Of a stretch of 64,000 nt of DNA, positions 7,611-25,895 are shown piece by piece. Positions within the stretch are counted from its first letter, which is position 1. Every line of letters begins with the position of its first letter. The stretch covers positions 372,001 to 436,000 of the forward strand of contig NZ_CP107812.1 of NCBI RefSeq assembly GCF_036346105.1, written 5' to 3'. This DNA comes from Streptomyces sp. NBC_00539 (GTDB lineage: Bacteria; Actinomycetota; Actinomycetes; Streptomycetales; Streptomycetaceae). A model generated the notes under the pieces. The model had not been told where the DNA came from, did no database searches, and saw nothing but the letters and a program-made list of their open reading frames with translations. The position numbers and the translations under genes are program-made.

Positions 7611-9496
7611 GCCACCTCCCCGGCAAGCTCCCGGGAGCGGTGAGTGAGGCAGACGTTGCGGGTCGGCAGGGCCCTGCGGGTGCAGGGCACTTCACCGTCG
7701 AACCCGGAGCAGGCCCCCGGCACCGACGGCGCAGCGGGAGCGGCAACGGCGACAGTCAGGGCATCGGCCTCCTCGCGGCACAGCTTGCACAGACCGGTGT
7801 CGACGGCCCGCCCGGTCAGGAAGATCACGCACCCGCAGTCGCCACACGAGGCACGCCGCGGGCCTTCGGGCTCCCGGGGCACCAGAACCGGCGCGGGGCG
7901 CCGGATGGCGGCGTCCAGCTCACAGTCGGCGCAGCGCCCAAACGGTCCGGGTCGGGTGCCGTGCTGGGGGCACAGGCCCTGCTCCAGGCGCTGTTCGCAC
8001 TGGCGGGCGGCGCGCTGGTCCTGGACGATTTCGGCGCACAGATCGCAGGCCGCGCCGGTCCGCCAGATGATGCTGGCCTCGCAGTCCTGGTAGCCGCAGC
8101 CCCAGCGGGGCAGGGCCACCCCCAGCAGCCACCGGCCCGGATCGCGGATGTCGGAGAGCATCACCTTGGCCAGGCGGGCCGTCAGCCGGTGCCGGAGACG
8201 GTCGGGGGCGGTGCCCTCGCGCAGCTGACGGCCCACCTCACGGGCGATCTTCCGGGCAACGAAGCTGCTCGTTACCTGCTCCAGCAGCACGTGGACCGGC
8301 TCCAGCACAGCGTAGATCTCCGGGCTCATGGCCAGCTGCGGTCCGGTGTGCGATGACCGGGACGACCCGCCATCCTTGCTGGTGCGCTTTTCGCTGCTCG
8401 GCTTCGAGGAGGGCTGGCTGATCTCACCCGCGCGCAGCGCGACACCACCCCCGCTGGTCGAACGTGTCGTCGCGGCAGCCGGGATTTCCACAGCCTCAGC
8501 GCCCTCAACTACCTGTACCTCGCCTACGGCGGGTGAGATGAGTGCACGCTCGTCATCCGGTGAGTCAGTCCTAGGTGATTCCTTATAGGCGAGGGATCCC
8601 TCACCAACCAGGGAACCCGATCCCTCACCAACCAGGGAACCCGATCCCTCACCAACTTGGGAACCCGATCCCTCACCAACTTGGGAACTGGCCGACCCCT
8701 CAGAACCACTGTCCACAGCTGTCTCAGCGGCCTCCGGAGCAGCGCTGCAACCGTCGGCCGGGACGCCCGGCCGGGCCTCCGGAGCGAGGTCGTGCGCGAT
8801 GTACAGGTTCCGGCCCCGCTGCCCCGCACGCCGCTGCACCGTCAACCAGCGCGCAGCCTCCACCTCGGTGACGACCGCTGACGCAGCCGTCACCGACAGC
8901 GCCTCGCCGGCCTTCTTGCCCGAGTGGTGCCAAAGACACGAGGCGAGCTCCGCCTCGGTCAACGCGATCCCCCGCGCCTGTGCGTACGCGACCAGCGCGT
9001 ACACCCGAAGCTGCCGGGGCGTGAGGTCCTCCGCGGCCGCCACCGGCAGCCACACGAACGCCTCCTCACCAGACATCGGCCGTACCGACCGCACCGCCGA
9101 CTGCCCCATCCCTCCCGGCAGCGTCCGGCGCGCCGAACGCAGCTCCACTACACCGTCCGGGCCCGGACGGCGTAGCTGCGTCATTCCTCGCTCCACCGAC
9201 GCCGCCGACAGCCCCAGGTACGAGGCGATCGTCTCCGTCTTTGCCTGGCAGCCCTCCGGCCGCGACGCCAGCGCCTTCACCTTCACGTACACCGACAGCG
9301 ACACGTCCTGATAGGCCGGCGACCACACCAGACGCATCGGCACACGAACCCGCTGCCGTCGTACCACCCCCGCACCCGGCACCGGCTGCAGCGCGCTCCG
9401 CTGGCCGGGAATCCTGACCGGGGCCCCGCCGACCTTGTCGACGTCGTCCCAGAGCGGGCGGTCCAGTACGGCGGCCGGCGCCGCCACGGCGCTCAT
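7607..9496 (-). CDS. Winged-helix replication-initiator candidate
   Basis: A 629-residue protein. Residues 50-130 look like a winged helix (YVKVKALASR, AKTETIASYLGLSAASVERGMTQLRR). A second helical segment (LTPRQLRVYALVAYAQ) follows at 155-240. A repetitive Ser/Gly/Val/Glu linker holds four near-identical eight-residue units. The C-terminal third has several Cys pairs (CGYQDC, CDLC, CADC, CGDCGC) that should bind zinc. HTH proteins of this layout next to DUF721 genes occur on Streptomyces plasmids, so a Rep role is proposed. A regulator cannot be excluded. ATG 9496 overlaps the end of a small leader ORF. Confidence 0.55.
   Translation of the reverse strand: MSAVAAPAAVLDRPLWDDVDKVGGAPVRIPGQRSALQPVPGAGVVRRQRVRVPMRLVWSPAYQDVSLSVYVKVKALASRPEGCQAKTETIASYLGLSAASVERGMTQLRRPGPDGVVELRSARRTLPGGMGQSAVRSVRPMSGEEAFVWLPVAAAEDLTPRQLRVYALVAYAQARGIALTEAELASCLWHHSGKKAGEALSVTAASAVVTEVEAARWLTVQRRAGQRGRNLYIAHDLAPEARPGVPADGCSAAPEAAETAVDSGSEGSASSQVGEGSGSQVGEGSGSLVGEGSGSLVGEGSLAYKESPRTDSPDDERALISPAVGEVQVVEGAEAVEIPAAATTRSTSGGGVALRAGEISQPSSKPSSEKRTSKDGGSSRSSHTGPQLAMSPEIYAVLEPVHVLLEQVTSSFVARKIAREVGRQLREGTAPDRLRHRLTARLAKVMLSDIRDPGRWLLGVALPRWGCGYQDCEASIIWRTGAACDLCAEIVQDQRAARQCEQRLEQGLCPQHGTRPGPFGRCADCELDAAIRRPAPVLVPREPEGPRRASCGDCGCVIFLTGRAVDTGLCKLCREEADALTVAVAAPAAPSVPGACSGFDGEVPCTRRALPTRNVCLTHRSRELAGEVA
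8595..8690. repeat. Four 24-bp direct repeats inside the initiator gene
   Basis: Four consecutive 24-base units starting at 8595, 8619, 8643 and 8667. Units 1 and 2 are identical, and units 3 and 4 differ by a CA-to-TT change in the middle. They encode four copies of a Gly/Ser-Val-Gly-Glu octapeptide. Size and tandem arrangement also fit iterons, which in some plasmids lie in or next to rep. Confidence 0.7.
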
Positions 9497-17278: not shown

Positions 17279-17370
17279 CCCGGCCACGCTCCCCCACCCC
17301 TTCCTCCGTCTGCCGACCGGCCCCCGGTCGGCCGATGCAGGAAGCGCACTGCCAGAAAGGACTTCCCGCT

Positions 17371-19389
17371 GTGACCACCCGACGCCCTGCCCGCCGGCCC
17401 GCCACGAAGCCCACGACGAAGAAGACCACCGCCGCCGACCAGTCCGCCGAGCCCACCGAGACCGCCACCGCTGTGGCCGAGCCCACCGCGACCGCCCCGG
17501 TGGAGGAAACCGAGGCGCTGGTGACCTCCGCGCGCGCCGAGGCCGACCAACTGCTCGCCGCCGCCCGCACCGAAGCCGCGTCCCTGGTGGACCAGGCCCG
17601 CCGGCAGGTCGACGACGCGGACGCCGCCGCCCTGAAGGCGCAGAGCGAGGCGGAGGAGATCCTGGCGGCGGCGACCGCGCAGGCCGAGCGGATGCGCAAG
17701 CTCACCGACGAGCAGATCACCGCGGCCGAGGAGACCGTGCAACGCGCCCGCACGATCGCCGACGGCGACCTGGCCGCCGCCGAGCAGACCCTGGCCCGCC
17801 GCCGCCAGGCCGCCGAGAAGCTCCAGGCCGAAGCCGAGCTGGAGGCCGGCCGGATCGTGGAAGCGGCCCGCACCCGGGCCGAGCAGATCCGCGCCGAGGC
17901 CGAGGAGGACAAGACCCGCGCCCAGACCGAATCCGACGCCACCACCGCGCACGCCGCGCACCTGGTGGAGGAAGCCAAGCAGCGGGCCGCGGACCTCATC
18001 GCGGCCGCCGAGGCCGACGCGGAGGCCCGGCGCGAGGCCGCGGCGCAGATGCGCGAGCAGGCGGAGAAGGACTCCGAGCAGCTGCGCACGCAGGCCCGCG
18101 ACGGAGTGGCCGCCGCCGAGGAGGACGCGGCCCGGATTCTGGACGCCGCCCGCAGCCAGGCCCGTGAGGTGCTGCGGGAGGCCGAGGACGATGCCGACGA
18201 TCGCCGCACGGAGGCGCAGCAGACGCTCCAGGCGGCGCAGGAGCAGGCCGAGGACGAGGTCCTCAAGGTCCGCTCGCTGGCCGAGGCGAAGGCCGCCGGG
18301 GTCATCACCGGCGCGGAAGCCGCGGCCGCCGAACGGATCGCGGTCGCCGAGAAGGAAGCCGCACGGCTGGTCGCCGCCGCCGAGGAGGAAGCCGAGTCGG
18401 TTCGCTCCCGCTTCCGCTACGAGCAGCAGGAGGTGTGGCAGGAGCTGACCGCCTCTCGCGAGGAGATCGCCAAGGCGCAGGCGCTCATCGCACTCCAGGA
18501 GAAGCGGAAGAACTTCGTCAACACCTGGGGCCCCCGGGTGGCGCTCGGCGCGACGATCGTCCTCACCGCGTCCGGCGAGTTCGCTCTGGCCAAGCTGTCC
18601 GGCTGGCCGTGGCAGGTCGCCTGGGCGCTGCCGCTCGCGATCGACGTGTACGTCGTGCAGGCGTTCCGCCGGCACCGCGACGTCGCCGCCGCGCTCATCC
18701 TCATGGTCGCCGCGAACGCCGCCTACCACCTGGCGGCCGCCGGCCTCGTCGGCGTCGAGACGCCCGTCGGCGACAAGCTGAAGCCGCTGTGGTGGCTGAT
18801 CGTGTCGGTAGCCGCCATCGCCCCGTGGGTGATGTGGCGCATCCACCAGATCACCAAGGAACCCGGTGAGACGGCCCCCGGTGAGACCGGCACAGCCACG
18901 ACGGCGCAGCCGGATGAGACCGACCGCACCCGGCTCACCGGTGAGACCGACACCGCCCGGTCCGCCGATCTCACCGCCCCCGGTGAGACGGTCCCGCACC
19001 CGCGCACCGCTCCGGCGACCCTGGCTGAGACGGCCGAGGGTGAGACGCGGTGGGCCCTTGAGACGACACCCGGTGAGACCGGGGCCCCGGTGAGCACGAC
19101 TGAGACGACGTCTCACACGGGTGAGACCCGCAGGTCAGACCGTGAGACGAACACCAGCACCGGGGGCGCGGTCGCCCTCCCGCTGCGCTCGGTTGAGACG
19201 AACCGCCCCGCCCTCGCCCGGGACGCTGAGATCGAAGGACAGGTCACCTCGCTGCTGAGCCTCATGTACCGGCGGCAGGGCCTCGACACCGTCTCAGTCG
19301 ACGAGGCCAAGGACATCCTCGGCGTCTCACGGGCCACCGCCGGCCGCCGACTTGAGATCGCACGGTCCCGCTACACGAACGTCTCGTGA
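17371..19389 (+). CDS. Spd-like coiled-coil membrane protein with C-terminal HTH
   Basis: A 672-residue protein from GTG 17371 (AAAGGA upstream). Residues 45-375 are an Ala/Glu/Arg-rich coiled coil. Then come three to four membrane helices with DUF2637-like features (LAKLSGWPWQVAWALPLAIDVYVVQAF). Next is a Gly-Glu-Thr-rich linker, and last an HTH (SVDEAKDILGVSRATAGRRL). DUF2637-type proteins accompany Streptomyces transfer genes as spread (Spd) proteins that help plasmid movement through septa. The linker DNA carries the TGAGAC cluster. Coiled coil, membrane anchor and DNA-binding end would suit a scaffold linking plasmid DNA to the transfer complex. Confidence 0.6.
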   Translation: MTTRRPARRPATKPTTKKTTAADQSAEPTETATAVAEPTATAPVEETEALVTSARAEADQLLAAARTEAASLVDQARRQVDDADAAALKAQSEAEEILAAATAQAERMRKLTDEQITAAEETVQRARTIADGDLAAAEQTLARRRQAAEKLQAEAELEAGRIVEAARTRAEQIRAEAEEDKTRAQTESDATTAHAAHLVEEAKQRAADLIAAAEADAEARREAAAQMREQAEKDSEQLRTQARDGVAAAEEDAARILDAARSQAREVLREAEDDADDRRTEAQQTLQAAQEQAEDEVLKVRSLAEAKAAGVITGAEAAAAERIAVAEKEAARLVAAAEEEAESVRSRFRYEQQEVWQELTASREEIAKAQALIALQEKRKNFVNTWGPRVALGATIVLTASGEFALAKLSGWPWQVAWALPLAIDVYVVQAFRRHRDVAAALILMVAANAAYHLAAAGLVGVETPVGDKLKPLWWLIVSVAAIAPWVMWRIHQITKEPGETAPGETGTATTAQPDETDRTRLTGETDTARSADLTAPGETVPHPRTAPATLAETAEGETRWALETTPGETGAPVSTTETTSHTGETRRSDRETNTSTGGAVALPLRSVETNRPALARDAEIEGQVTSLLSLMYRRQGLDTVSVDEAKDILGVSRATAGRRLEIARSRYTNVS

Positions 19390-19392
19390 GAC
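18867..19392. repeat. Cluster of 17 TGAGAC motifs, candidate clt/TraB recognition locus
   Basis: TGAGAC occurs on the plus strand at 18867, 18882, 18915, 18942, 18984, 19026, 19041, 19059, 19074, 19101, 19122, 19143, 19194 and 19387. It occurs inverted at 19110, 19291 and 19324. In thirteen coding cases the T is the third base of seven different codons (GGT, GAT, GCT, CTT, ACT, CGT, GTT), all disfavoured in such GC-rich DNA. The DNA word rather than the peptide therefore seems to be conserved. TraB-type translocases of Streptomyces recognise clusters of short direct repeats. Confidence 0.65.
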
Positions 19393-19879: not shown

Positions 19880-20437
19880 GTGACCCACGACCGCGAACGC
19901 GAATACATCGACCAGAGATTCACCAACCTGACTGCCGGCGTGGAGTGGGAGCAGCCCGCCCCCACCCCCTACGGACCGCCCGTCAAGGCCCCGATGACGG
20001 GACAGACCAAGGCCCTGCTCGCGATGGCCGGACTGGTCATCGTCGGCGCCAGCGCGGTCGGCGTTTCCGCCTTCAGCGCGTCCTCCGGGCAGGCCGAGGT
20101 GCGGGCCCAGGAGCTTGCGCTCCAGGCCCAGCAGCTCGAGGTGGAGCGGGCCAAGGTCAACGTCCCGGACGCGAAAGCGGAAGAGCGGCGCATCGCCGGA
20201 TTCCAGGCGTGCATCGAGAAGGCCGGCATGAACAAGGACGTCTGCGCGCAGGCGTTCCCGCCCGCCAACACAACGAACCTCGGGGGCTCCCGGGGCGCGG
20301 CCAACGTGTCCTCCGTTTCCGACTCCAACCAGGGCGGAGGGTCTGGCATCACGGGAGGTCTCGTCATCGCCGGAGTGGCGGTCGTCGGGATCGGATTCAT
20401 GGTCCGCAAGGCCAACAAGGCCGGTAACGCCGCGTAA
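19880..20437 (+). CDS. Two-helix membrane protein
   Basis: A 185-residue protein from GTG 19880 with an excellent AAGGAGGAAC site. A membrane helix at residues 45-68 (LLAMAGLVIVGASAVGVSAF) is followed by a coiled coil (QAEVRAQELALQAQQLEVERAK). Then come two cysteines (ACIEKAGMNKDVCAQ), which may form a disulfide, and a second helix near the end (GGLVIAGVAVVGIGFMV). Probably an envelope-located partner in the transfer module. No family name recognised. Confidence 0.65.
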   Translation: MTHDREREYIDQRFTNLTAGVEWEQPAPTPYGPPVKAPMTGQTKALLAMAGLVIVGASAVGVSAFSASSGQAEVRAQELALQAQQLEVERAKVNVPDAKAEERRIAGFQACIEKAGMNKDVCAQAFPPANTTNLGGSRGAANVSSVSDSNQGGGSGITGGLVIAGVAVVGIGFMVRKANKAGNAA

Positions 20438-20438
20438 G

Positions 20439-20527
20439 TTCCTTCCTTCCCTCCCACACGGAAAGGCCCGTTCCCGCGCCCCATGGGGCCGTGAACGGGC
20501 CCTTTCGGTCGGGAGGGAAGGAAGGAA
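20439..20527. terminator. Nested 89-base inverted repeat with polypurine arms
   Basis: TTCCTTCCTTCCCTCCC (20439-20455) is the exact complement of 20511-20527. Inside it sit a second stem (20465-20473 with 20493-20501) and a 12-bp palindrome (20478-20489). It starts two bases after a stop codon. A terminator is likely, but the pyrimidine/purine arms are unusual. Confidence 0.6.
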
Positions 20528-20555
20528 GGAAGTCACAGAAAGTGAGGATTCCGCA

Positions 20556-22340
20556 GTGTCGACCCCGCCCGCCCCGCCCCCGATGCCCCCTCAGCCGCCC
20601 GTCGGCGCTGCCCCGGCCAGCCCCCCGGCCCAGGCCCCCGCGCCGCCCTCCACCCCCGCTCCGACCGCCCCGGCTGGGGGCGGCATCCTCGCTCCGGTTA
20701 CGCTCGCCCGCCCCACCCGGGACGCCTCCGGAGGATCCGCCGCCTACGCCTCCCAGGAGGAGAACGGCAGCACGGACAGCAAGCCCGGCAAGGGGGTGAA
20801 GAACACCGCGAGCCCCGGTATGTGGAAGGGGATCGCCGCCTACATCGCGAACCGTCCGCAGCGGAAGATCGCGGTTCAGCACACGATCAGCGAGATCCGC
20901 GGAACGTCCACCGATCGCAAGATCAACCACGGGATCACGGAGAAGAAGGGCGCCACCTCCGACACGAAGTCGAACCGAACGGCGACCACCGCCCACGCCA
21001 GCAAGAGTGACAAGTCCGCCAAGGACCACAGCGCCCGCGACGCCAAGACCTCGGCGGCCAGCACCAAGGCCGACAAGAACAGCCGCGACGCGAAGACCGC
21101 CGACACCCGCAGCTCCGCGGACAAGAACAGCCGGGACGCCAAGACGGCCGACACGCGTAGCTCGGCGGACAAGAACAGCAACACCCGGGACGCGAAGACG
21201 GCCGACACCCGCAGTTCCGCGGACAAGAACAGCCGCGATGCGAAGACAGCCTCGGACCGCAAGGACCACAACACCCGCCAGCAGACGGGCAAGTCGTCCG
21301 CGGACACCCAGGACCGTACGGCCCGCGACGACAAGACCAGCCGCAAGACCGACACCAACGGGCGGCAACCGCCGGAGAGCAAGCCCGCCTCCGCCACCAC
21401 GCCGCCGAAGGCCCCCGCCCCCGGCACAGCTACCGCACCCCCCACTCCGGCCAAGGCCGTGGACAAGCCCACGGCGGTGAAGCCGGACCCGGCCACCACG
21501 AAGCCGGGTCCCCAGCCCGCGCCCGGCGCGCCGGCGCCCGGCCCGTCCGCACCGACCAGTCCGGCTCCGGCCGGGCCGACCGGTCCGTCCGGCCCCGCTC
21601 CCACCGGCAAGCGGGGCAAGGTCAGGCTCCGCAAGGGCCCCTACAGCGCGCAGCCCGCGCGCGAGGAGGGCTTCAAGGCCGGTGCGCAGCAGGCCGCCGT
21701 CGAAGCGGACAAGGCCGCGTGGAAGGACGGCTACGCGGACGGCCAGCAGGCCATCCGGGACAAGGCCGCCCGAGACAAGGCGCAGATGGACGCCGCCCGT
21801 GACCGAACCCGAGGAGTTCCGCCCGTGCCCGCCAATCCCACCGTCCCGCCGGCTCCGTCCACTCCCCCCGCGCCCGCTTCGGGGGCGCCGGGAGTGACGC
21901 CCCTGGGGGCGAAGGTCGTCGGCGACAACGTGCAGCTGTCCAACGGCACCACCCTGACCCGCGGCGAGGTCCTCAACCTGCGCGCCTTCACCCGGTTCCT
22001 TCACGGCAAGGAGCAGCAGACCCACCAGATCACCGACCAGTGCAAGCAAGCCAAGGAAGTCTCGGCGAACCGCGTCAAACAGATCCAGCAGCTGATCGAG
22101 CAGTGCCAGGACCCGAAGATCAAGGGCGGCAAGCACCTGGTCGCCTCCCTGCAGAAGCTCCACGACGCCACCGAGGCCCAGGCAAAGGAGGCCGACAAGA
22201 TGCACGCCAACGCGGCGCGCGGCATCGACGCTCTGCAGACCCTCAACAAGAACGCGGAGACCCGCCACGGCGGCGTCTACAAGGCCGTGGCCGACTCCCC
22301 CGAGACCAGCCCCGCCGAACGCGCCTTCTACACCCGATAG
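20556..22340 (+). CDS. Low-complexity Pro/Ala- and Lys/Asp-repeat protein
   Basis: A 594-residue protein from GTG 20556. It starts with a Pro/Ala-rich tract. Residues 160-235 contain about four copies of a SSADKNSRDAKTADTR unit. A second Pro/Thr/Ala-rich tract and a helical region (EEGFKAGAQQAAVEADKAAW) follow. A longer helical C-terminus has RGEVLNLRAFTRFLHGKEQQTHQ and coiled-coil character. No signal peptide or membrane helix is visible. It is immediately upstream of a small coiled-coil gene and the TraB-like gene, so it is probably a transfer-associated structural protein. Function not recognised. Confidence 0.6.
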   Translation: MSTPPAPPPMPPQPPVGAAPASPPAQAPAPPSTPAPTAPAGGGILAPVTLARPTRDASGGSAAYASQEENGSTDSKPGKGVKNTASPGMWKGIAAYIANRPQRKIAVQHTISEIRGTSTDRKINHGITEKKGATSDTKSNRTATTAHASKSDKSAKDHSARDAKTSAASTKADKNSRDAKTADTRSSADKNSRDAKTADTRSSADKNSNTRDAKTADTRSSADKNSRDAKTASDRKDHNTRQQTGKSSADTQDRTARDDKTSRKTDTNGRQPPESKPASATTPPKAPAPGTATAPPTPAKAVDKPTAVKPDPATTKPGPQPAPGAPAPGPSAPTSPAPAGPTGPSGPAPTGKRGKVRLRKGPYSAQPAREEGFKAGAQQAAVEADKAAWKDGYADGQQAIRDKAARDKAQMDAARDRTRGVPPVPANPTVPPAPSTPPAPASGAPGVTPLGAKVVGDNVQLSNGTTLTRGEVLNLRAFTRFLHGKEQQTHQITDQCKQAKEVSANRVKQIQQLIEQCQDPKIKGGKHLVASLQKLHDATEAQAKEADKMHANAARGIDALQTLNKNAETRHGGVYKAVADSPETSPAERAFYTR

Positions 22341-22349
22341 GAGCCCCCG

Positions 22350-22721
22350 ATGGCAGAGACCACCTACCGCGCGCTGCGCGCCGAGGTACAGAAGGTCGCC
22401 TACTCCGTGGCCAGGGAGGGCGAGACGATCCGGGAGATCGGCCAGCGCGCCGACCAGAACGCCCAGCGGGTGGCCCAGGTCGCCGACAACCTGGCGAACC
22501 TCGAAGTCGACACCCACACCACCGGCGAGGCCAAGGACACGGCGCGGATCATGCGCGGCCTGTCCCAGGTCGCCATCGCCGCGGCGTCGGCCGCCGACAA
22601 CGTCGGCGGCGCCGCGCGTGCCGCCGACGCCCAGGCCCAGAAGTCCCACGAGGGCATCGACGAGCAGGTCGGTGCGATGACCGTCCCCATGGCCCGCGCC
22701 TCTTTCTACGAACAGGAGTAA
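22350..22721 (+). CDS. Small helical protein upstream of traB
   Basis: A 123-residue, largely helical protein (ALRAEVQKVAYSVAREGETIREIGQRADQNAQRVAQVADNLANLE) that probably forms a coiled coil. ATG 22350 has TAGGAG upstream. It lies nine bases after the previous gene and six before the translocase gene, so all three form an operon. Likely an accessory factor of the translocase. No family recognised. Confidence 0.6.
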   Translation: MAETTYRALRAEVQKVAYSVAREGETIREIGQRADQNAQRVAQVADNLANLEVDTHTTGEAKDTARIMRGLSQVAIAAASAADNVGGAARAADAQAQKSHEGIDEQVGAMTVPMARASFYEQE

Positions 22722-22727
22722 CCGAGC

Positions 22728-24938
22728 ATGTCCGAGATCACCGTGACCCGCCGCCCTCAACTCGCCGACCAGGTCCCCGCGCTGGTCTCGGTGATCGCCC
22801 CGCCCGTCCTCAGCGCGCTGACCCCGCTCCTCGAGCCCGGCCTCGCCGCCCTCACCGCGGCCGCCACGGTCTGCGGCAGCGCCGCCTTCGCCACCCACTA
22901 CGTGGGCCGCGTCCCGGCGAACATCGTCAACGCCACGGGGATCGGGGACGTCCTGGCCGCCCAGCGCTCCACGCTGCTCGGCTCCAGCCTCCTGACCTCC
23001 ATGGCCGTCGTACCGGGCGCGTTCCTCGGCCCCGCGTACGCGGACGCCCTCATGGCCGGCTTCCTCGACCCGGCCAGCATCTCCGGGCTTGTCTCCGCCG
23101 CCTGGTGGACGATGTGGGCCGGCCTCACCATCAAGCTCCGCCCCGCCCTGGCCGCCCGCAAGGTCCGCATCACCGCCCCCACCCCGGAGGCCGGCCCGGC
23201 CGCCGCCCCGGGGCCGGGGGGCCTCTACAAGGTGTGGGCCGACCACATCTCCGGCGAGGGCGGCGCGCACCCGGGCCAGCACCTCGTCGGCGTGAGCGAC
23301 ACCGGGGACCGGTGGGAGGGGATCATCGAGGCCCCCCAGGGCCGGTCGGTGAACGTCTCCGCCGAGTCCGTCGGCTCCGCGTACCGGGTCCCGGCCGAGT
23401 GGGTCAGCTTCGCGGCCGGCCACCACCCCGGCGAGCAGTACGTCACCGTGCGCCGGACCCCGCCGGCGGAGCTGGACCCCACCACGATGGAGGGGATGTG
23501 GGCCCGCCTGGTCCGGCCGACGGTCATGCCGGGCACCCACCTCAAGGACGCCCAGGTCGACCCGGCGACCGGCGGCTGGGTGGCGTGGGTTGTGGCCGAC
23601 GAGGACAAGGCGTCCCTGCCCGTTCCCAACCGCACGGACCTGGTGGGGGCGCTGCGGTCCACCATGACCCTGGTCGACTACCAGCCCAACAAGTCCGACC
23701 CTCGCAAGGCGAAGATCCACATCATGGAGAAGAACCCCCTGGAGGACGGGGTGCCCTTCCCCGGCCCGCAGGTGCTCAAGCCGTCCCCGGGCGGATACAT
23801 CTCCATCGGGCGCGGCGTCTCCGGCCGCCCCGCCCGCCTCCAGCTCTTCGACCCCGTCCTCGGCGCCCAGCACGTGTTCATCGCCGGGGTCACCGGCTCC
23901 GGCAAGGGCGGCGCCGTCCAGATCATCGCCCTCGCCGGACACCTCGCCGGGATGGCGATCATCTACGCCGACCCCAAGGGCAGCTCCAACCCCGACGTCG
24001 AGACGATGGCCGCCTACGCCGCCACCGGCGACGACGCGATCAAGGCCCTGCGCCTGTCCTACGCCATCCTCAAGCACCGGATCGCCGAGTCGGCACGCCT
24101 GGGCCGGAAGAACTTCAAGGCGACGGACGACTGCCCGTGGGTCATGACGGTCGTGGACGAGACCCACATGATCACCGACACGGCCACCGAGACCGGCAAG
24201 GAAGCGGTGTTCATCCTGGACAAGCTCGCCTCGCTGGGCCGCAACCTCGGCATGACGCTGCTGATCGTCAACCAGGCCGTCAACGCCGCCAAGCTCGGCG
24301 GAGACACCGCGATCCGCACCAACGTCATCCAGGGCGGCGCGATGATCATGCTGCGCACCGACAGCGCCCAGTCCAACCTCGTGACCGTGGAGGGCTTCGA
24401 GGGCATCGACCCCGGCGCGATCCCCGCCGCCTGGAACATCGAGGACGAGCCCCTCATCTGGTCCGACGACCTGCCCATCAACGACCCGGCGAGGACGTTC
24501 GGCCTCGGCTACGTCGGCTCGCCCGGCGAGCCGGTGCAGATGATGCGGACCTGGGTCCTGGAATCCGCCGCCCCCTACATCCGCCACGACGCCATCATCT
24601 GGCCGCAGGACTTCACCAGCTGGAACGACCGGCACCAGATCGCTGACACCCCCGTGAACGGCGACGGCGACACCCCTGCCGGCAGCAGCGGCTCGGGCTG
24701 GGGCAGCGGCGGATACGAACCCCCGCCCAGCGGCGGGTTCAAGGCGCCGGCCGAACCCGCCGCGGACGTCGCCATCCTGGCCTGCCTCGACGACCACGCC
24801 GGCCTGGAGATGCCCAAAGCCACGATCCTCGCCCTCACCGGCCTCAACGAGAAGACGCTCTCCAACACGCTGACCGACCTGGTCAAGAAGGGAGCCATCG
24901 AACGCGTCAAGAACGGCGTCTACCGCAAGAACGCATAG
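22728..24938 (+). CDS. traB: FtsK/TraB-type conjugative DNA translocase
   Basis: A 736-residue motor protein. Residues 15-140 hold hydrophobic segments for membrane anchoring. The RecA-like domain carries Walker A GVTGSGKGG near residue 386 and Walker B VMTVVDETH near 471. The last 60 residues (AILACLDDHAGLEM to the end) form a winged helix corresponding to the FtsK gamma/TraB DNA-recognition domain. Streptomyces TraB proteins form hexameric pores and move double-stranded plasmid DNA between hyphae after recognising short repeats at clt. ATG 22728 follows an AGGAG site. The symbol is given by function. The TGAGAC cluster 3.5 kb upstream is the candidate target. Confidence 0.85.
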   Translation: MSEITVTRRPQLADQVPALVSVIAPPVLSALTPLLEPGLAALTAAATVCGSAAFATHYVGRVPANIVNATGIGDVLAAQRSTLLGSSLLTSMAVVPGAFLGPAYADALMAGFLDPASISGLVSAAWWTMWAGLTIKLRPALAARKVRITAPTPEAGPAAAPGPGGLYKVWADHISGEGGAHPGQHLVGVSDTGDRWEGIIEAPQGRSVNVSAESVGSAYRVPAEWVSFAAGHHPGEQYVTVRRTPPAELDPTTMEGMWARLVRPTVMPGTHLKDAQVDPATGGWVAWVVADEDKASLPVPNRTDLVGALRSTMTLVDYQPNKSDPRKAKIHIMEKNPLEDGVPFPGPQVLKPSPGGYISIGRGVSGRPARLQLFDPVLGAQHVFIAGVTGSGKGGAVQIIALAGHLAGMAIIYADPKGSSNPDVETMAAYAATGDDAIKALRLSYAILKHRIAESARLGRKNFKATDDCPWVMTVVDETHMITDTATETGKEAVFILDKLASLGRNLGMTLLIVNQAVNAAKLGGDTAIRTNVIQGGAMIMLRTDSAQSNLVTVEGFEGIDPGAIPAAWNIEDEPLIWSDDLPINDPARTFGLGYVGSPGEPVQMMRTWVLESAAPYIRHDAIIWPQDFTSWNDRHQIADTPVNGDGDTPAGSSGSGWGSGGYEPPPSGGFKAPAEPAADVAILACLDDHAGLEMPKATILALTGLNEKTLSNTLTDLVKKGAIERVKNGVYRKNA

Positions 24939-25421: not shown

Positions 25422-25895
25422 ATGCAACCGAGCGAGGGCAGCAGCGACTTCGAGGCGCCGTGCAACTGCGGCGCCCTCGGCGACCACGAGCCCAACCGGG
25501 ACTGCTCCCATCAGCCGGTCATCCACATCGAAGTGACCGGTGGCCGCTCGGCCTGCCTCGAAGCCCTCGGAGTGCTCCGAGCGCACTACCACGTGTTCCC
25601 TGAGCACGAGTGGCAGGACCCGAACAGCGAGCAGTGGGTGTTCCAGCTCGGCGCCGTCCGGAACTACTGGCGGCCGCTCGCGCCGGCCCCGGCGCTCACC
25701 GCACCGGCGGCGCCCACCCCGGAAGCCGCCGTACTCGCCTGCCTCCACGACGCGCTCGGCCTGGAAGTCGACGAGAACGCCATCGGCGCCCTCACCAACC
25801 TGACCGGCGAAACCCTCACCACCACCCTGACCGCCCTGGTCAAGGTCGGCAAGATCGAACACGTCCGGCCCGGCTACTACCGCAAGAACACCTAG
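25422..25895 (+). CDS. Stand-alone protein carrying the TraB C-terminal winged helix
   Basis: A 157-residue protein. Its last 60 residues (AAVLACLHDALGLEVDENA through GYYRKNT) align without gaps to the C-terminus of the neighbouring translocase (AILACLDDHAGLEMPKATI through GVYRKNA), with about half the positions identical. The N-terminal 90 residues include a Cys/His cluster (CNCGALGDHEPNRDCSH) and a small alpha/beta segment. With the recognition helix largely shared, it could bind the same DNA repeats as TraB and act as regulator or competitor. It is a clear duplication of the domain. ATG 25422. Confidence 0.7.
   Translation: MQPSEGSSDFEAPCNCGALGDHEPNRDCSHQPVIHIEVTGGRSACLEALGVLRAHYHVFPEHEWQDPNSEQWVFQLGAVRNYWRPLAPAPALTAPAAPTPEAAVLACLHDALGLEVDENAIGALTNLTGETLTTTLTALVKVGKIEHVRPGYYRKNT

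Follow-up and report, generated by a model that had tools for sequence, protein, structure and literature searches.

The TGAGAC array at the 3' end of an Spd-like gene probably consists of sites to which the C-terminal HTH encoded by that same gene binds, and the protein would so tag its own plasmid for a membrane transfer or spreading complex, a reading to which we assign a probability of about three in four. In related plasmids, the word changes together with the part of the protein that would read it, which suggests self-recognition of the plasmid.

The array, its gene and its replicon

The window, by which we mean the whole 64-kb stretch of DNA analysed here, is part of a contig of 436,969 bp (C2). 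Within 526 bp it carries 14 direct (+ strand) and three inverted (- strand) copies of TGAGAC, a recount in agreement with the initial annotation, while the rest of the window has just three further copies. Thirteen of the 14 direct copies stand in one codon register behind seven kinds of codon (GGT, GAT, GCT, CTT, ACT, CGT and GTT), all ending in T as had been claimed, and such codons are indeed rare in the Spd-like gene (29 of 684); the 14th copy includes its TGA stop codon, again as described. On contig C2 the word occurs 17 times within the array and 62 times elsewhere, with at most three copies in the densest other 500-bp window, thus the replicon-wide count bears out the proposed clustering. 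Since the 31 + 31 copies outside the array are near the Markov-4 expectation (31.4 and 35.7), TGAGAC is at background elsewhere on C2. Synonymous recoding of the same peptide (300 recodings) gives a mean of 1.8 and a maximum of 7 copies, compared with the 16 observed ones which do not cross the stop codon. When the whole window is shuffled by dinucleotides, about 30 copies are expected where 20 are seen, so there is no window-wide enrichment; it is the clustering alone, not the overall count, that is enriched in the window. The features are collected in Table 1.

Table 1. Features of the array gene and its operon, in window coordinates
Feature	Position	Strand	Basis
Spd-like gene: coiled coil, membrane domain, linker, C-terminal HTH	17335..19389	+	ORF, plasmid homologues, membrane-domain alignment A4
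Region for conserved membrane domain with some four hydrophobic segments	18502..18855	+	profile match G000:C2:390502-390855
TGAGAC array, last copy over stop codon	18867..19392	+	word counts, contig scan, recoding null
Inverted pair TGAGAC-GAC-GTCTCA within array	19101..19115	.	positions and sequence
Region for C-terminal HTH, proposed reader	19207..19386	+	alignment A5, covariation with word
185-aa protein containing hydrophobic segments and conserved in operon of L026-L028	19880..20437	+	ORF, neighbours
594-aa low-complexity protein	20556..22340	+	ORF
123-aa protein	22350..22721	+	ORF; relatives' annotations
TraB/FtsK-like P-loop ATPase, C-terminal winged-helix-like end	22728..24938	+	Walker A GVTGSGKG

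The Spd-like protein has 684 aa with the predicted start codon; Pfam gives no family for it, and none above cut-off for nine of its relatives. Its coil shows a weak likeness to Scy/DivIVA, far below the cut-offs. The four segments of the membrane domain are read from the sequence, and in a hydropathy scan no segment rises above 1.4 but the third and, barely, the fourth. For the C-terminal HTH, Pfam returns only sub-threshold hits of mixed HTH families, and a solved-structure search with HTH alignment A5 gave no match at E 1. The TraB-type gene that had been noticed downstream forms one operon with the array gene. Among its products, the 185-aa and 594-aa proteins have no Pfam family, the 123-aa ORF takes the same place as a short 'conjugal transfer protein TraB' of some relatives (by position and annotation only), and the TraB-like protein has FtsK and MarR matches, both sub-threshold. 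Against the reading given above, just 3 of 17 loci (11 genomes) have a match to PF01580 no farther than 5 kb away, though the TraB of the window is also below the threshold of this model.

Some other elements were seen on the replicon. In the window, four 24-bp direct repeats starting GATCCCTCACCAAC (8595-8690) are iteron-like, a long inverted repeat with TTCCTTCC-type arms is found by eye between the 185-aa and 594-aa genes (20437-20540), and a 157-aa protein (25422-25895), with similar ORFs also in L026-L028, has a C-terminal end resembling the TraB-like winged-helix end (weak profile match, 44 bits). Elsewhere on C2, palindrome clusters around CGTTAACG lie near a ParB gene with ParB_N and HTH_ParB (G000:C2:269651-277079, L019) and are probably the plasmid's parS region; CGTTAA of this palindrome counts 34 on the + strand of C2.

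Arrays across the family

Relatives were collected in several ways. A tblastn search yielded 22 plasmid records, 14 of which were fetched (L039, a short unrelated stretch, was dropped), and a pattern scan of genome contigs yielded 33 loci. At E 1e-10, 50 of 395 family genomes contain relatives, and 60 of the 61 listed places from family genomes were used with their flanks, the window's own place being excluded. Phylum-wide, 4 of 396 genomes have matches at E 1e-8, all in the own genus, with two new loci which stand outside the analysed set, as do most of the 31 plasmid records from an additional protein search; another protein search for plasmid relatives found none. Among 107 loci with a profile match, L056 and L145 (N) and L158 (too short) were dropped, and removal of near-duplicates reduced 104 loci to 79 non-redundant ones.

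Overall, 96 of 105 loci lie above the maximum of 300 nulls for the chosen word, but in this count the word had been selected among the six most frequent ones. By a stricter measure, 59 of the 79 non-redundant loci have a linker array which is reached by none of 200 synonymous recodings. The remaining 20 fail this strict null, L060 only narrowly (2 of 200 recodings). The same null detects arrays in 0 of 57 coil segments and in 0 of 30 TraB 3' ends. By these nulls, the arrays are a real DNA-level feature across the family. The words in the same place of the relatives include CCGTACGG, CCGGTA, CGGAAA, CGGAAC, TGAGCG, TGAGAG, TGCAAC and others, with 12-19 copies per array in the TGAGAC class and up to about 40 in the family. 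In the Micromonosporaceae relatives (L054, L055, L057, L063 and L037) a coil lies after the membrane domain and before the HTH, and a CGGAAA-type word is spread throughout that coil. Where the class is clear, the fetched stretches contain no other cluster of the word that compares with the array, the exceptions being L137 and L151 (doubtful words) and L148.

It is of interest to ask whether the word or the peptide is kept. In the linker/HTH part of 19 TGAGAC-class genes, a T-ending codon precedes Glu-Thr in 217 of 231 cases, compared with 6 of 43 in the coil/membrane part of the same genes, in line with the claim of the initial annotation that the nucleotide word is selected and not the peptide. 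As L031 and L050 have identical linker and HTH, the 19 genes represent 18 distinct ones, and the stop codon starts a TGAGAC in 14 of these 18. In the Kitasatospora relatives L029 and L030 the word is relaxed to an in-frame TGA[AG]A[ACG]C; a T precedes the Glu codon in 10 of 20 and 10 of 17 cases respectively, and related sequence is present at the stop codons of both. Copies of the word in the GGAAC and TGAGC classes occupy several frames and lie in either orientation, an indication that double-stranded DNA is what matters, not RNA or peptide. One homologue, L112, has mostly lost the word and kept the peptide, an outcome that the initial annotation had named as speaking against its reading: T precedes just 3 of its 18 linker Glu-Thr pairs, and its 22 copies of GAGACC are only marginally above the synonymous null (mean 13.2, maximum 21). 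Its HTH is also changed (PRSTAAKR). Taken as a whole, these patterns indicate that selection acts on the DNA word rather than on the peptide.

Covariation of the word with the HTH

For the question of who reads the array, word-profile similarity was compared with protein similarity, the last 180 bases (HTH-coding) being excluded from the word profile. Over the 79 loci, HTH similarity is correlated with word similarity with r 0.89, and with partial r 0.80 when the membrane domain is given (reached by 0 of 2000 permutations); the corresponding value for the membrane domain given the HTH is 0.05 (67 of 2000). Given both the membrane domain and the TraB C-terminus, the word still follows the HTH with partial r 0.82 (0 of 2000, n=30). 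For example, the membrane domains of L062 and L064 are 98% identical and their coils 72%, but their HTHs are unlike and their words different.

Pairs of loci compared by blastn show where such changes take place. In L062/L064 the 84% similarity ends 14 bp beyond the membrane domain with no return within the fetched stretch; in L036/L060 it ends 22 bp beyond the membrane domain and is back some 45 bp downstream of the L036 stop codon; in L142/L143 it ends at the membrane-domain end and is back 6-7 bp before the stop codon; and in L042/L116 nearly the whole gene is dissimilar while 6.2 kb downstream are common at 83%. These breaks indicate that array and HTH are altered jointly, separately from the rest of the operon. 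The two are adjacent DNA, so co-inheritance adds to their association, but it does not account for a single word filling a whole array or for the graded word changes within a class. We regard it as quite probable, by covariation, that the reader is the HTH of the Spd-like protein encoded there, and both the covariation and the exchange as a block give good support to self-reading by this HTH.

Possible roles and comparison with known systems

In the mechanism that we propose, the C-terminal HTH would bind the array inside the gene encoding it, and the membrane anchor with the long coiled coil would hold the bound plasmid at the membrane, at the site where the transfer or spreading complex (the TraB/FtsK-like ATPase and its partners) works; tethering at this site is suggested by the membrane domain and by the coil's weak likeness to Scy/DivIVA. 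The Spd-like protein may thereby tag the plasmid that encodes it as the cargo to be transferred or to be spread through the mycelium. With sites and reader in one DNA stretch, they would be inherited, diverge and be exchanged jointly, and every plasmid would retain a matched private specificity of array and HTH. Physical binding, tethering and the role in transfer or spreading are what we infer from sequence, and the transfer role is less certain than self-reading. In a wider sense, actinobacterial plasmids and chromosomal elements might tag themselves in this way, with array and HTH as an exchangeable identity cassette which would determine the DNA that the membrane complex of the element handles, replacing or standing beside TraB/clt, a generalisation to which we give even odds.

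A role in partition or stability, in which the protein reads the array as a centromere-like element in the manner of SpdA2/sps, is a serious alternative because loss of sps or spdA2 on pIJ101 lowers segregational stability and not transfer, according to the available passages of the report (PMC4170104). A ParM-annotated gene in the related L033 operon also fits it, but the ParB gene of the replicon adjoins a palindrome array of its own (C2 269.6-277 kb) and the array's operon includes a TraB-like gene, and we consider the role possible though doubtful; it would retain self-reading and alter only what self-reading is for. Autoregulation, with binding within the own gene limiting transcription of the operon, seems unlikely: the sites are inside the gene and upstream of the remaining operon, as it would have them, but 12-19 sites at the gene's 3' end in the TGAGAC class would make an unusual operator, and the divergent GntR-type gene upstream of several relatives may be the likelier regulator.

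The initial annotation had taken the array for a TraB recognition (clt) locus; in such a locus the winged helix of the TraB-like ATPase would read the array and DNA transfer would start there. Such a reading has precedents, as in the accessible passages of PMC3583192 the clt repeats differ between plasmids, with TraB or TraA of other Streptomyces plasmids binding plasmid-specific short-repeat clusters, and the clt of pWTY27 overlaps the end of its tra gene; moreover, the window's TraB-like gene ends in a winged-helix-like domain. TraB candidates were found at 50 of 105 loci, or by a stricter method at 29 of 79, one of them (L160) upstream. Among the 30 C-termini compared, some are doubtful and were kept in, namely L057 and L063-type ends which adjoin a second FtsK-like ORF, and those of L062, L115 and L124 which look like wrong ORFs or frames; with these included, the word does not follow the TraB C-terminus (partial r -0.05, a value that 1671 of 2000 permutations reach). 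L042 (TGAGAC) and L116 (GTACGG) have TraB proteins 91% identical across 717 positions and unlike words, while TGAGAC is found next to unlike TraB C-termini, as in L042 and the window, which have the word in common and HTHs 90% identical with a TraB score of 0.03 of self. By eye, the TraB ends of L034, L035 and L042 have no winged helix. Accordingly, selection of the DNA word, the recognition-site-like cluster and the TraB operon stand from the earlier reading, while TraB as the reader is not supported by the covariation, the word following the Spd-like HTH, and we hold a clt locus in this sense to be very unlikely. Finally, an artefact of a disordered Glu-Thr linker with GAG ACx codons in GC-rich DNA is hardly credible: the linker is Glu-Thr-rich, L112 is near this state and the linkers failing the strict null would fit, but the T before Glu-Thr contradicts it for the TGAGAC class, and the stop-codon, inverted and out-of-frame copies as well as the several frames of the words in other classes argue against it.

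The way in which elements of the Streptomyces type select their own DNA, for transfer in double-stranded form and for spreading, is understood only in part. Should the Spd-like protein indeed read its own gene, a single purified domain and a single synonymous recoding would make the identity of an element accessible to testing, and self-tagging could supply a recognition site for elements without a described clt motif. The family would also provide numerous natural word/HTH pairs from which HTH-DNA specificity could be learned, and a plain example of coding DNA doubling as a binding array.

Searches of the open-licence PMC literature found no description of such arrays; subscription papers were outside this scope, and an earlier report is possible. 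Partial similarities are seen in several known systems. To our knowledge, O of phage lambda has no membrane domain. As described in part of PMC4488673, O has its binding sites as repeats (iterons) inside its own gene, as proposed here, but they are a replication origin of four 19-bp repeats and an A+T-rich segment. The parS sites of SCP1 are, in the available part of PMC13245405, single inverted repeats near their operons. SpdB2 of pSVH1, likened here by description only, is in the passages of PMC4170104 an integral membrane Spd protein that oligomerises, interacts with TraB and binds DNA, reportedly non-specifically; SpdB of pIJ101 has neither profile match nor array. Like the clt of pSVH1, pWTY27, pJV1 and pIJ101, as far as described in passages of PMC3583192 and PMC4170104, the arrays are short plasmid-specific repeat clusters near transfer genes, and in this the cluster appears to behave like a recognition site as first suggested; the reader of clt is the translocase, unlike here, and TGAGAC differs from the clt words in the passages compared, as the initial annotation had remarked.

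Closest is SpdA2 of pIJ101, which specifically binds the sps motif within spdA2 itself, in register with a peptide motif (PMC4170104, in the part available). The likeness lies in a motif within the gene of its own DNA-binding protein, here at 79 loci (59 significant) with the reader assigned by covariation. By the same passages, SpdA2 is a protein of 135 residues whose conserved N-terminal region putatively binds DNA, and spdA genes carry a 12-bp palindrome in 2-3 copies; the proteins here have a coil, a membrane domain and a C-terminal HTH, and the arrays have 12-19 (TGAGAC) to about 40 copies of many words. By inspection of word, layout and length, the 12-bp sps palindrome and the SpdA-type N-terminal domain are not matched here, and the exchange of the array together with the HTH is a further difference. 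By this analogy, SpdA2/sps is the nearest precedent, and the array described here can be regarded as a larger, modular variant of it.
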